64,000 bases of DNA from Pelagicoccus sp. SDUM812005 (GTDB taxonomy: Bacteria > Verrucomicrobiota > Verrucomicrobiia > Opitutales > Opitutaceae): the NCBI RefSeq assembly GCF_031127875.1, contig NZ_JARXIA010000001.1:310001-374000 (forward strand), written 5' to 3'. Below the pieces are notes generated by a model. That model did not search any database. It was not told where the DNA came from and worked only from the letters and a program-made list of their open reading frames with translations. Made by a program: the position numbers and the translations under genes. The number at the start of each line of letters is the position of its first letter. Position 1 is the stretch's first letter. This document shows, in pieces, positions 3,481-7,846 of the stretch.

Positions 3481-4773
3481 ATGGCACACGCGGAAGAACA
3501 CGGATCAATTTTTCAGGAAATGGCAGAACGGAGAAGCCGTAACGAAAACCTGAACGCCCGAGCGATCGAGCAGGGGATTCCGGTGAGCCAACCTATGGTT
3601 TCCACTGAAAGCGAGGACGTGGAAGCGATCGAAATGAAGCCTGCTTTCGAGATGGAGGAATTTGCGCCAGCTCGTGTATCTGAAAACGAGATACAGGAGG
3701 AGGTGGCGGAGCCGTTGATCGAAAAGGTGGATACAACGAGCACTTTCGACGGGGAGGAAGGGCTCGAGGCGGAATCGCTGCCGGAAACCTCCAGCTACTT
3801 CGACGATTTGGACGCGGGGGAGGATACGGGAAGCATCGAAGCCTCGATCGAGGAGCCGGCCTTGGAGGCGAGTTCCGGGCAGGATTTTGCGGAGGCGAAG
3901 GAGGAGGCTGCGTTGCCGTCCTATTTCGAGAGCCTTGACGACGCGGAAGCGGAAGTGCCGGCGGCGATCGAGGCGGAAGCTTCTAGCAGCGAGCCGTCCG
4001 CGTTAGAGGAGGAGGAGGCAGGTCTCGATATTTCGGAAGCGGTGGAGGCCGATGCCATGTTTACGAACTCCGAGCGCGAGGAGGAAAGCGGCTCTCCCGC
4101 CTCCTATTTTGGAAATTTGGAAGAGTCGGTTTTCGAGGAGCCTGGTCCCGTTTTGGAGGAGAATGATACGGCTCCGTCCGCGGATCTGGAACCGGAGATT
4201 GCGGAGCAGGCGAGCATTGCTGACGATGGATTTTCCAGTGGGCCTCCGCTTCAGCCTGCCGCATTGGAGGATACGACCAACGCAGAGGAAAATTCCTTGG
4301 CGGAGGAGAGCGAGCTGGAATCGGATTCAGAGTTGGTCGCGGCGGAATCGCTCGAAACCGCTGAATCAGCTCCGGCGGAGGAGATGGCGGAAGAGCCAGC
4401 CGATTCACTCAAATCGGAAGACTTGATCGAGCAGAGCGAAAGCTTGTTGGCCGATGCTCCGGAGCCCATTGCGGATGCGGAAGTCATTATGGCCGCCGAG
4501 GAGTTGGTCGATCGAATCGGACCGGTCGTGGACATTCAGAGCCTGCCCAAGACGCAACCATCGCGGGTGCTTTCTAAGACGGCGAAAGCGATGGCCGAGG
4601 AACCGGAGGCCAAGCCAAGTGCGGCGCAGCCGGAGGCGGAGAAGGAGCCCCAGCCGACGCCAGTCGCGAAGAAAGTGGAACCCGTTCCCCAGGAAACCCA
4701 GGAGGCTGCAGTTCCGCCAAAGAAGAAAAAGAAGAAGGTTTCCTTGTTGGATAGCTACTTCAAGGGGCTCTAG
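3481..4773 (+). CDS. Acidic, probably disordered protein with four SYFxxL motifs
   Basis: A 430-residue protein very rich in Glu, Ala and Ser, with no recognisable folded domain, signal peptide or membrane segment. A short motif recurs: SYFDDL (about 105-110), SYFESL (147-152), SYFGNL (208-213), and SYFKGL as the last six residues (425-430), the last preceded by a basic KKKKKK run. The spacing is irregular and the linkers are acidic, as expected of a multivalent linear-motif scaffold. It is divergent from an orphan ParA ATPase across 155 bp. Its stop overlaps that of the convergent ABC ATPase gene in a shared CTAG. I recognise no family; a role as ParA partner or adaptor is inference from adjacency. 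Confidence 0.75.
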   Translation: MAHAEEHGSIFQEMAERRSRNENLNARAIEQGIPVSQPMVSTESEDVEAIEMKPAFEMEEFAPARVSENEIQEEVAEPLIEKVDTTSTFDGEEGLEAESLPETSSYFDDLDAGEDTGSIEASIEEPALEASSGQDFAEAKEEAALPSYFESLDDAEAEVPAAIEAEASSSEPSALEEEEAGLDISEAVEADAMFTNSEREEESGSPASYFGNLEESVFEEPGPVLEENDTAPSADLEPEIAEQASIADDGFSSGPPLQPAALEDTTNAEENSLAEESELESDSELVAAESLETAESAPAEEMAEEPADSLKSEDLIEQSESLLADAPEPIADAEVIMAAEELVDRIGPVVDIQSLPKTQPSRVLSKTAKAMAEEPEAKPSAAQPEAEKEPQPTPVAKKVEPVPQETQEAAVPPKKKKKKVSLLDSYFKGL

Positions 4774-5501
4774 TACTTCAGTTCCCGTTCGAGGAATTGC
4801 CGGAGCTCTTGGCTCTGGGGAGAGTCGAAGAGGTCCTTCGACGTTCCGGATTCGGCGACTTTTCCGTGGCTGATGAAGGCGGCGTAATCGCTGGCCCGTT
4901 TGGCGAATCCCATTTGGTGGGTGACGACGATGCAGTCCTTGCCGCTTTGTATCAGCTCTTCAATGACGTCTAGGATCTGGGCGCTCATCTCGGGGTCGAG
5001 GGCGGAGGTCGGCTCGTCGAAGAGGATAAGCTCCGGGTCGTGGGCGAGCGAGCGGGCGATGGCCACGCGCTGGTTTTGGCCGCCGGATAGTTCCGAGGGC
5101 TTTTTTCGGCTGTGGTCGGCGAGCTTGAAGCGGGCGAGCAGCTCGTAGGCGCGTTCCTGGGCGTCGGCTTTGGCTACGCCGTGGACTTTTTCCAGCGGAA
5201 GGGCGATGTTGGTGAGGGCATCGAAGTGCGGAAAGAGGTTGTAGGACTGGAATACGACGCCGATCGATTTGCGGTAGTCTCTGAGTTCTTCCTCGCTGCA
5301 AGGCACGGCTTTGTCGTTGAGCAGGATGTGTCCGCCGCTCGCTTTTTCCAGGCCGGCCACGAGGCGCAGGGTGGTGGACTTGCCGCCGCCGGAAGGGCCG
5401 ATCAAGGTGAGGCAGCGAGCGTTTTCCAAGTGGAGATCGAGTCCGTCGAGGGCTTGGTGCTGCCCGTAGCTTTTGCTCAGGTTTTCGAGGGCGAGCTTCA
5501 T
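4770..5501 (-). CDS. Polar amino-acid ABC transporter, ATP-binding subunit
   Basis: A 243-residue cytoplasmic ATPase of the GlnQ/HisP class. It has Walker A GPSGGGKST, signature LSGGQNQRVAIARSLA, Walker B LILFDEPTSALDPE and the switch histidine in VTHQMGF. It is the last gene of a four-gene operon (methyltransferase, binding protein, permease, ATPase); its ATG overlaps the permease stop. Length is normal for the family. It energises import of an amino acid or amino-acid-like solute. The substrate is not readable, but the leading methyltransferase gene hints at a histidine-derived compound. Confidence 0.93.
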   Translation of the reverse strand: MKLALENLSKSYGQHQALDGLDLHLENARCLTLIGPSGGGKSTTLRLVAGLEKASGGHILLNDKAVPCSEEELRDYRKSIGVVFQSYNLFPHFDALTNIALPLEKVHGVAKADAQERAYELLARFKLADHSRKKPSELSGGQNQRVAIARSLAHDPELILFDEPTSALDPEMSAQILDVIEELIQSGKDCIVVTHQMGFAKRASDYAAFISHGKVAESGTSKDLFDSPQSQELRQFLERELKY

Positions 5502-6286
5502 GAGTCGAAGGCCAACCTTTTCTCGAGGCGGCGGGAGAGGTGGAAGATGGGCAGGGTGAGGATCAGGTAGCCGACGGCGAGGGGAAAGAAGCTCTCGAAG
5601 GTGCTCAAGGTGGAGGTGTTCACTTCTTGGGCATTGAGGGTGAACTCTTCGATGGCGATGATCGAGAGAAGGGACGAGTCCTTGATGAGGTTCGCGAATT
5701 GGCCGGCAAGGGCCGGCAGGCTGCGACGTAGGGCTTGGGGGAAAATAATGTATCGGAAGGTTTGATACGGGGTGAATCCAATCGCTTTGGCGGAGAGGAG
5801 CTGGGAGCTGCCGATCGACTCGATGCCGGCTCTAAATATTTCGGAGACGTAGGCGCCGCTGAAGAACGAAAGGACGAGGACCCCGACCACGTATCGGTTT
5901 TCAAGGTGGGCAGCGTCGGCGAAGACGTAGAAGATGAGAAGGATTTGTACGAGAAGTGGAGTACCGCGGGTGCCTTCCACGTAGATCTTGAACAGGTAGC
6001 GAAGCGGCAAGAAACGCGAGCGGGCGGAGAGGGCGGAGAGTCCGCCGATGATGCAGGCTACCAGTAAGGATACGCTGGATACTTGGATGGTGAGGAGCCA
6101 ACCTTCGATGAACTTGGTCTTGTATTTGAATACGGCCGACCAGTTCCAATTGTATTCGAGCGAGGCGAAGGCAGCCAGGGCTAGGAGGCAGAGGAAGGAA
6201 AGGGCGAGGGTGGCGCTGGCCCACTTGGCCGCGGCTCGGACGGCGGTGGGATCGGAGTCCGGGTCTTGGAAAAGGAGGGCTCTCAC
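5498..6286 (-). CDS. Polar amino-acid ABC transporter, permease subunit
   Basis: A 262-residue inner-membrane permease of the HisM/GlnP class. An N-terminal hydrophobic anchor at about 25-45 is followed by about five further membrane segments. The conserved start of the permease core is EGWLLTIQVSSVS and the ATPase-docking loop is SAKAIGFTPYQTFRYIIFPQALRR. Only one permease gene is present, so the channel is probably a homodimer. It starts 3 bp after the binding-protein gene and overlaps the ATPase gene by 4 bp, so subunit stoichiometry is probably set by translational coupling. Confidence 0.92.
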   Translation of the reverse strand: MRALLFQDPDSDPTAVRAAAKWASATLALSFLCLLALAAFASLEYNWNWSAVFKYKTKFIEGWLLTIQVSSVSLLVACIIGGLSALSARSRFLPLRYLFKIYVEGTRGTPLLVQILLIFYVFADAAHLENRYVVGVLVLSFFSGAYVSEIFRAGIESIGSSQLLSAKAIGFTPYQTFRYIIFPQALRRSLPALAGQFANLIKDSSLLSIIAIEEFTLNAQEVNTSTLSTFESFFPLAVGYLILTLPIFHLSRRLEKRLAFDS

Positions 6287-6289
6287 TTC

Positions 6290-7072
6290 CTAGAAGAAAA
6301 AAGCATAGCCCATTTCCTGGAAAGCTTTCTTTTCTTCCGCTAGGTAGCGTTCGCCGAGCTGCTCGAAACCGCCGTTTGCCTTGAAGGTGGAAAGGAATTC
6401 GTTCACGGAATTTTTGAGTTCCTCGTTTCCTTTGCGGATGCCGATAGCCCAGTGTTCCGTCTTGAAGGGGGCGAGGATGGGGCGAGTGGTTTCGGGATGC
6501 CGCTTCCAGTTGCGGTAGGTGGACATTTGGTCGTAGATGAAGGCGTCCGCCTTGCCTTGGGTTACTTCCACGACGGCGGCGGTTTCCTTGTCAAGGGCTA
6601 GGACCTGGGCGTGTTTGATGTTCTCCATGGCGTAGAGGTGTCCGGTGGTGCCTTGCTTGACGGCGATGGCGTTTCCGGTTTGGTCCGCGTCTTCGATGGA
6701 TTCTATGTCAGAGTCTTTGGATACGAGCAGGCAAAGCCCGGTTTCCAAATAGGGATCGGAGAAGTCGATGGAGCCGGCCCGTTCTTCGGTGGCCGTCATG
6801 GAGGAAAGGATGAGGTCGATCTTGCCGGTCTTCAGGGAGGAAATGAGACCTGCGAAGGCGATGTTTTCGATGCGGACGGGACGCCCTAGGTGTTCACCGA
6901 GCGCGTAGGCGAGATCGACGCTCACGCCTGCCGGCTGGTTGTTCTCGTCCGACATTTCGAAAGGTGGGTAGGAGAGTTCCATGCCTACCACGAGGGTGTT
7001 GTCGTCGGGCTGGGGACTGCAGGCGACGAGCAAGGCGGCCAGGATGGATGCGAGTAGAAGGATCGGTTTCAT
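6290..7072 (-). CDS. Polar amino-acid ABC transporter, solute-binding lipoprotein
   Basis: A 260-residue binding protein of solute-binding family 3 with lipobox LLVAC (Cys18). Family landmarks are VVGMELSYPPFEM near the mature N-terminus, GLISSLKTGKIDLILSSMT, and FSDPYLETGL. Lipid anchoring keeps it at the inner membrane near its permease. It lies 24 bp after the methyltransferase gene and 3 bp before the permease gene, all on the same strand. The C-terminus ends in an unusual YAFFF. The importer role is well supported; the ligand is unknown. Confidence 0.92.
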   Translation of the reverse strand: MKPILLLASILAALLVACSPQPDDNTLVVGMELSYPPFEMSDENNQPAGVSVDLAYALGEHLGRPVRIENIAFAGLISSLKTGKIDLILSSMTATEERAGSIDFSDPYLETGLCLLVSKDSDIESIEDADQTGNAIAVKQGTTGHLYAMENIKHAQVLALDKETAAVVEVTQGKADAFIYDQMSTYRNWKRHPETTRPILAPFKTEHWAIGIRKGNEELKNSVNEFLSTFKANGGFEQLGERYLAEEKKAFQEMGYAFFF

Positions 7073-7096
7073 GAGGAGCGGTCGGCTGGGGAGGGA

Positions 7097-7846
7097 CTAG
7101 CGTTTTCGCCAGAGGGTGGCGTGGGCGATGCTGTATTGGTTTTTCCGAGCATGCTCGCGAATGAGGAAGGGCATGTCTAGCGCTTCTATCTCGTCGAATT
7201 CGGGGGCGAGGAGGGACTGCAGCGTTTGGTAGCTGCGGACGGGAGCTCCGTCGCGCTGGAAGCCGCCCAGCCACTTTTCTTTGGGCGTGTATTCTTCAAG
7301 CCAAGTGTAGGGGGAGGTGATGGCGAGGATGCCGCCGGTATTGATTGCTTGGCCGATGCTCCGGAGGCATTGGGCGGGATCGGGGAGTCGGTCGATCAAG
7401 TTGGCGAGCAGGGCGAAGTCGAAGGTTCCCAGGTCGCTGGGCAGGGCAAGGGCGTCTCCTTGGCGGAAGCTCAGGCAGTGCGGTCGGGTGTTGGCGGGAC
7501 GCTGCAGGGTGATCCGCTCGGTCAAATCTCCTTCGATGGCGATTTCCGCCTCCAGGCTGGCTCCGTCGCGGATGCGTTCGGCGGCTTCGATGAGCCCGTG
7601 GGAGAAGTCGATGCCGATGGTTTCCTCGAAGTAGGCGGAGAGCTCGCAGGCGCTGCGTCCCACGGCGCAGCCAAGATCGAGGGCGCGTCCGTGCTTGAGC
7701 GGGCGGCGGGTGGCGAGCTCGGCGCAGCGCTTGGAGAAGTCGAGCGCTTCGGGCGGGCCTTGGAAATGGTCGGCAGTCCCGTAGTGGAAGAGTAGATACT
7801 CGGAGATGGCTTTGTCGGTTTCGTAGAAGCTGTCGATGTTAGGCAT
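7097..7846 (-). CDS. Stand-alone ovothiol-type (4-mercaptohistidine) N-methyltransferase
   Basis: A class I SAM methyltransferase of 249 residues, homologous to the C-terminal methyltransferase domain of OvoA. It begins FYETDKAISEYLLFHYG, has the SAM loop LDLGCAVGRSACEL with GIDFS, and a C-terminal KEKWLGGFQRDG then LWRKR. The window's full OvoA (44335-46467) shares GRSA-EL, GIDFS, WLGGF and the terminal VW-K pattern. I use the ATG at 7846, directly before the conserved start; the frame stays open to a TTG at 8014, but that extension is proline-rich and unlike the family. It leads an operon with an amino-acid ABC importer, so it may act on an imported thiohistidine or related imidazole. The substrate is inferred. 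Confidence 0.75.
   Translation of the reverse strand: MPNIDSFYETDKAISEYLLFHYGTADHFQGPPEALDFSKRCAELATRRPLKHGRALDLGCAVGRSACELSAYFEETIGIDFSHGLIEAAERIRDGASLEAEIAIEGDLTERITLQRPANTRPHCLSFRQGDALALPSDLGTFDFALLANLIDRLPDPAQCLRSIGQAINTGGILAITSPYTWLEEYTPKEKWLGGFQRDGAPVRSYQTLQSLLAPEFDEIEALDMPFLIREHARKNQYSIAHATLWRKR

Follow-up and report, generated by a model that had tools for sequence, protein, structure and literature searches.

A 64,000-nucleotide stretch of Pelagicoccus sp. SDUM812005 (contig NZ_JARXIA010000001.1, positions 310,001 to 374,000; hereafter the window, which means this whole stretch) carries a four-gene operon that is real and conserved, in which a stand-alone methyltransferase of the ovothiol type is followed by the binding lipoprotein, permease and ATPase of a polar amino-acid ATP-binding cassette (ABC) importer. 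The same window encodes a complete fused OvoA, 36 kb from the stand-alone enzyme and absent from an earlier note that had been made on this DNA from its sequence, so the stand-alone methyltransferase is a second copy. We tentatively favor, at somewhat less than an even chance, the explanation that the operon joins amino-acid uptake to a cytoplasmic ovothiol-finishing methyltransferase that would replace the methyltransferase domain of OvoA, with the importer feeding it a related amino acid.

The operon and its conservation

The four genes, their strand and their spacings (24 bp between methyltransferase and binding protein, 3 bp between binding protein and permease, and an ATGA overlap of permease and ATPase) were found in the open reading frame (ORF) calls and family searches just as the earlier note had described them (Table 1). 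The polar amino-acid type that it had given to the transport genes also agreed with the family searches: an SBP_bac_3 protein, a polar amino-acid transport (PAAT) permease recognized by TIGR01726 and an ATPase form one unit, and the binding protein has an alpha-amino-acid pocket.

Table 1. Operon genes and fused OvoA, with positions in the window.
Feature	Position	Strand	Remarks
Stand-alone ovothiol-type S-adenosylmethionine-dependent methyltransferase (window methyltransferase)	7846-7097	minus	249 aa, ATG start at 7846, first operon gene
Lipoprotein substrate-binding protein, polar amino-acid type	7072-6290	minus	SBP_bac_3 E 2e-36; LVAC lipobox
ABC permease, polar amino-acid type, single permease gene	6286-5498	minus	GTG start; BPD_transp_1 PF00528 E 7e-22; TIGR01726 above cut-off
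ABC ATPase	5501-4770	minus	ABC_tran; top NCBIfam match GlnQ, 238 bits, below its cut-off
Fused OvoA (sulfoxide synthase domain and C-terminal methyltransferase domain)	46467-44335	minus	TIGR04344 671 bits and TIGR04345 336 bits, single frame

The stand-alone methyltransferase was found in 13 genomes of the window genome's family (f1), the window included, and the order and strand of the four genes are kept in all 13. The same order was seen in one Opitutales metagenome-assembled genome (MAG; locus L042), whose contig stops within the ATPase, and the operon is thus present at every one of the 14 loci that make up the clade of the window methyltransferase. The linkage proposed by the earlier note holds within this clade; in the stretches fetched from other genomes the importer does not lie beside the methyltransferase. 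Since the flanking genes for CheX, a DHH phosphatase and phosphoglucomutase are syntenic across the f1 loci as well, these loci are not independent observations. Among 37 f1 genomes, the methyltransferase, the binding-protein orthologue (E < 1e-100) and the OvoA N-domain all occur in the same 10 and are all absent from the other 27.

Two further proteins of the window were recorded. An acidic low-complexity protein (window 3481-4773), 33-66% identical to its relatives over aligned stretches, is convergent with the ATPase gene, the two ends overlapping by 4 bp, and a binding protein of the SsuA/NMT1 type is encoded at 1302-2279.

The stand-alone methyltransferase

The window methyltransferase passed TIGR04345 with 224.3 bits (curated cut-off 170, E 1.5e-66), which bears out its earlier assignment as a homologue of the OvoA C-terminal domain. 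Its closest named relative is from Pelagicoccus sp. SDUM812002 (82% identity), and the proteins of solved structure related to it by sequence are OvsM (211.8 bits), OvoA_Th2 (196.6) and OvoM (143.6). The structure prediction (predicted local distance difference test, pLDDT, 85.4; predicted template modelling score, pTM, 0.86) matched OvsM with 5-selenohistidine (9bxk) and OvoM with 5-thiohistidine (9bxn) at a template modelling score (TM) of 0.89 and 2.2-2.3 Å; among the best 50 matches of the fold search, entries other than OvoA, OvsM and OvoM reached a TM of at most 0.67, scored by query length. The canonical motifs NLIDRL, SPYTWLEEYTPK..WLGG and PF.IRE..RK.Q are retained in the window enzyme and, with few changes, across all 14 methyltransferases of its clade.

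The likeness to OvoM (9bxl-9bxn, Sulfuricurvum) and to OvsM (9bxh, 9bxj, 9bxk, Marinimicrobium koreense), N-methyltransferases of 5-thiohistidine and 5-selenohistidine, respectively, lies in the predicted fold, the motif set, including that of the substrate region, and the stand-alone chain (TM 0.86-0.89; 34-45% identity in structural alignment); the window enzyme differs from both in its clade and in sharing an operon with an importer. With OvoC, the C-terminal methyltransferase domain of OvoA (OvoA_Th2, 8khq), it has TIGR04345 and 44% identity in structural alignment in common, whereas it has no sulfoxide synthase fused to it and is accompanied by a complete fused OvoA.

In a maximum-likelihood tree of 103 rows (the 100-bit limit for the methyltransferase set excluded none), the OvoA C-termini, OvoM and OvsM formed one clade of 23 rows with a support of 100/95. 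The window methyltransferase fell outside it, in its own clade of 14 (100/99) within a separate group of 74 stand-alone methyltransferases from Verrucomicrobiota, split off at 92/87. This deep split is not firm, because six methyltransferases of family f41 fall on the OvoA side of the fork and all six share the neighbor gene of the other group that is described below. The window methyltransferase is thus OvoM-like by predicted fold and motifs, yet on this tree it does not group with OvoM and OvsM. The earlier note had stated that the family methylates the imidazole of mercaptohistidine. Family, predicted fold and motifs speak for this; for the window enzyme itself we infer the substrate, because its clade is separate from the OvoA C-termini, OvoM and OvsM.

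Most genomes with such enzymes lack OvoA. An OvoA N-domain above cut-off was missing from 56 of the 75 Verrucomicrobiota genomes positive for TIGR04345, and 55 had none even at E 1e-15, so that the known route supplies no home-made 5-thiohistidine to their methyltransferases. Near the methyltransferase, 43 of 83 stand-alone loci (a count that includes L070, a split OvoA tail) carry a highly conserved protein of about 385 residues, for example at L116:5881-7053 (minus strand) and in L062, L115 and L161; seven members are 53-68% identical to that of L116. In all 33 loci with an ORF call for this protein it is upstream on the same strand, with gene centers within 1.5 kb in 29. It is missing from all 14 loci in the clade of the window methyltransferase, and it was not found anywhere within the window or the fetched f1 loci. 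Three members had no match in Pfam and three none in NCBIfam, and no meaningful solved structure was retrieved either with one sequence (best E 1.3) or with an eight-member profile. Conserved clusters of His, Asp and Glu suggest a metal enzyme, and its motifs may resemble those of M29 metallopeptidases. At position 152, 53 of the 60 other methyltransferases of the group (f41 apart) have Cys, whereas the window enzyme, OvoM, OvsM and most OvoAs have Asp.

The fused OvoA

The earlier note had read the operon as scavenging of a histidine-derived thiol or related imidazole followed by methylation. As an account by scavenging only, this does not survive the complete OvoA of the same organism, and pure scavenging was rejected for it. 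In all 13 f1 genomes the methyltransferase domain of OvoA has lost the canonical motif residues that the stand-alone enzyme keeps. Typical replacements are LDTLLERS for NLIDRL, SSTYDW for SPYTWLEE and RKTARTFDH for RETxRKxQH, and the Asp of motif I has become Ala, Asn, Val or Ser. In family f20 the motifs of four of four OvoAs are altered as well, and those of G049 in part. They are canonical or nearly so in the OvoAs fetched from Ewingella, Rahnella, Aeromonas, Sulfurovum, Photobacterium, Oceanimonas and the planctomycete MAG described below, and intact or nearly so in seven of eight OvoAs fetched from Verrucomicrobiota genomes without a stand-alone methyltransferase, the exception being G055 (the comparison left out three further genomes of this kind, G566, G597 and G684). 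Loss of the motifs in OvoA and their retention in the separate enzyme would fit a take-over by the latter.

The OvoA of G055 lies in two frames (L194, G055:C1:2889965-2892704), an N-domain frame of 561 aa and then one of 428 aa with a partial N-domain and the methyltransferase domain. A Streptomyces OvoA diverges in a different manner from those of f1; on the plasmid of Streptomyces sp. RerS4 (L182) a divergent OvoA is followed directly by one methyltransferase gene, with another two genes upstream and metK nearby.

Distribution of the importer

The importer is linked to the methyltransferase by distribution. We searched 387 Verrucomicrobiota genomes with the window permease at E 1e-45 and with TIGR04345 at E 1e-35, and obtained permease matches in 35 (the weakest at 2.1e-52) and TIGR04345 in 75. 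All permease carriers but one, G717, were also positive for TIGR04345 (34/35). At the level of genera, 21 of the 22 with the permease are among the 45 with TIGR04345, out of 198 (hypergeometric 6.5e-15, phylogeny ignored). The permease occurs in 33 of 64 genomes with a stand-alone methyltransferase, versus 1 of 11 OvoA genomes that have none (G594).

Outside f1, a binding protein orthologous to that of the window (42-62% identity) was present in the fetched stretch of 17 of the 30 permease carriers, 3.4 kb from the permease in G647. All 22 genomes in which permease and binding protein were seen together (these 17 and five of f1) are positive for TIGR04345. No methyltransferase was found in the stretches fetched around the permease outside f1, mostly about 6 kb on each side; in G763 it lies about 13 kb away. 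When the neighbors of the importer at 26 non-f1 loci were read by eye, no metabolic partner recurred beyond close relatives.

An independent physical link of the importer to OvoA was found in a planctomycete MAG (G057, locus L043), where a permease and an ATPase of the same kind lie upstream of a fused OvoA and are separated from it by a single ORF that we read as ADP-ribosylglycohydrolase-like. The contig stops before the point where a binding protein could be seen. This permease, the only match of the MAG to the window permease, is 52% identical to it over 220 residues, up to 62% identical to other members and 32% identical to E. coli GlnP; it scores 253 bits against the window permease and at most 205 against 17 other planctomycete permeases. 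Among 392 Planctomycetota genomes, nine had OvoA above cut-off, 18 the permease at E 1e-40 and four both, on the same contig in G057 and on different contigs in G165, G191 and G226. In the four annotated regions among five plasmid regions with OvoA, no polar amino-acid importer was annotated beside it; the Ewingella region has an ABC ATP-binding gene at a distance of about 4.3 kb from OvoA.

Six other planctomycetes (G123, G160, G192, G264, G319 and G412) have sulfoxide-synthase-like proteins that cover most of TIGR04344 at 222-277 bits, well below cut-off; in three cases the frame is about 455 aa long.

The binding protein and its pocket

The window importer matched the NCBIfam equivalogs of amino-acid transporters (GlnH, HisJ, ArtJ and cystine) below their cut-offs in every case, so that annotation gives no ligand and leaves such ligands among the candidates. 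We aligned the pocket in 33 binding-protein rows including the window's (L040 and L053, and L041 and L059, are identical pairs), with GlnH numbering. Arg75, Asp157, Ser67, Ser68, Lys115, Thr118 and Gly120 are invariant, Tyr13, Phe50, Thr70 and Trp185 are each present in 32 rows and Tyr156 in 31, and position 10 is Glu in 30 and Asp in three. From the structures of GlnBP and HisJ, we take Arg75 and Asp157 to hold the two ends of the amino acid, and Asp10 and Lys115 of GlnH to hold glutamine. The aromatic pair together with the acid and the lysine would suit an imidazole thiolate.

The window importer resembles GlnHPQ and HisJQMP of E. coli in its component set and in Arg75 and Asp157. Its binding protein shares Phe50, Thr70 and Lys115 with GlnH and Tyr13, Ser67, Ser68 and Thr119 with HisJ, while Glu10, Tyr156 and Trp185 are like neither; its permease is 32% identical to GlnP, 29% to HisQ and 31% to HisM. 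The predicted structure of the binding protein was poor (pLDDT 58.6).

Discussion

From the operon, the predicted fold, the retained motifs, the presence of OvoA, the amino-acid pocket and the shared distribution of permease and methyltransferase, we infer a substrate for the methyltransferase, its take-over from OvoA, a ligand for the importer and the direction in which the importer is used. The window methyltransferase would be a cytoplasmic enzyme of the OvoC/OvoM/OvsM fold that N-methylates an imidazole. Its most likely reaction in the Pelagicoccus lineage is the conversion of 5-thiohistidine to ovothiol A, which it would perform in place of the fused OvoA, in which the methyltransferase domain has lost residues of the canonical motifs. 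For the importer, the most likely cargo is a chemically similar alpha-amino acid, which may be 5-thiohistidine, ovothiol for reuse or histidine, and home-made and imported material would thus reach the same enzyme.

Several observations weigh against this explanation. The altered methyltransferase domain of OvoA is well conserved in f1, with a median identity of 69% (55 pairs, 11 genomes) next to 58% for the stand-alone methyltransferase and 73% for the OvoA synthase domain; by this comparison it is not a decaying domain, and it may have another role. In G055, which belongs to f20, OvoA is altered and a stand-alone methyltransferase is lacking at E 1e-30, and the alteration may be a single event because the OvoAs of f1 and f20 form one clade in the 103-row tree. 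About half of the genomes with a stand-alone methyltransferase are without the permease, and most are without OvoA. The genus statistic carries no phylogenetic correction. Thirteen of the 30 non-f1 permease carriers show no orthologous binding protein in the fetched stretch, some being near contig ends, and for want of this protein they may be related importers with another ligand. Finally, Lys115 and an acidic position 10 are found in all 33 binding-protein rows and are shared in kind with GlnH, which keeps glutamine, the ligand that the earlier note had given as an example of a refuting outcome, among the possible ligands.

This last likeness also bears on whether the two halves of the operon are related at all. 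An ordinary glutamine-type importer could have landed behind the methyltransferase gene and been held there by synteny, as the conservation of the flanking genes and the absence of the methyltransferase beside the importer in the stretches fetched outside f1 (nearest seen in G763) would allow; we consider this improbable, because 34 of 35 permease carriers have TIGR04345 against 75 of 387 genomes overall and the permease stands independently near OvoA in G057. A rather better case, although still somewhat unlikely in our estimate, can be made for the stand-alone methyltransferases as an old group of the Verrucomicrobiota with a substrate of its own outside the ovothiol route (histidine or a different imidazole amino acid), which the importer would supply and the protein of about 385 residues would help to process. 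The separate clade of the group, its many members in OvoA-less genomes and the Cys at position 152 all point that way, and a different, older function is a serious rival mainly because of these OvoA-less genomes and of the 385-residue protein, which recurs near stand-alone methyltransferases but at none of the loci of the window methyltransferase's clade. Against it, the window enzyme retains Asp152 with the full motif set of OvoA, OvoM and OvsM, and, save for G055, fused OvoAs without the motifs are confined to lineages that have a stand-alone methyltransferase.

An ovoselenol route, in which the methyltransferase would be an OvsM acting on 5-selenohistidine, is highly improbable and was rejected. 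OvsM is the top solved relative by sequence, but the window enzyme lies outside the clade that holds OvsM, and TIGR04348, which we take to be the selenosugar synthase SenB, was above cut-off in none of 57 genomes (no search by name was made for SelD or OvsA), the best score in the window's own genome being 39 against 300 bits. A broader form of salvage, in which many Verrucomicrobiota without a sulfoxide synthase import foreign 5-thiohistidine through this importer and methylate it to ovothiol with the stand-alone enzyme, the salvage genes of Pelagicoccus having been gathered into one operon and having in addition replaced the methyltransferase function of OvoA, we consider unlikely.

The earlier note knew of no described pathway with this arrangement, and in the portion of the open-access literature surveyed we likewise found neither a pairing of a 5-thiohistidine importer with a methyltransferase nor a bacterial uptake route for 5-thiohistidine or ovothiol. 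Open-access searches that joined ovothiol to Verrucomicrobia, ovoA to Pelagicoccus and 5-thiohistidine to ABC transporters returned nothing. In principle, ABC uptake of a thio-histidine has a precedent in the ergothioneine importer EgtUV, of which EgtUC belongs to cluster F-III and binds a betaine in an aromatic cage (PMC9732360), whereas the binding protein of the window is of the SBP_bac_3 type with an amino-acid pocket.

According to PMC12631010, the benefit that cells draw from ovothiol is poorly understood. Methyltransferases of the ovothiol type, spread across a phylum in genomes without the known precursor-making enzyme and co-distributed with one amino-acid permease, can be tested directly and cheaply. 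Import and methylation of foreign 5-thiohistidine, if they take place, would form a pathway by which a thiol antioxidant is salvaged. For this marine bacterium of the Pelagicoccus group, the operon may be a means of making ovothiol, an antioxidant, from a precursor that is either taken up or produced in the cell.

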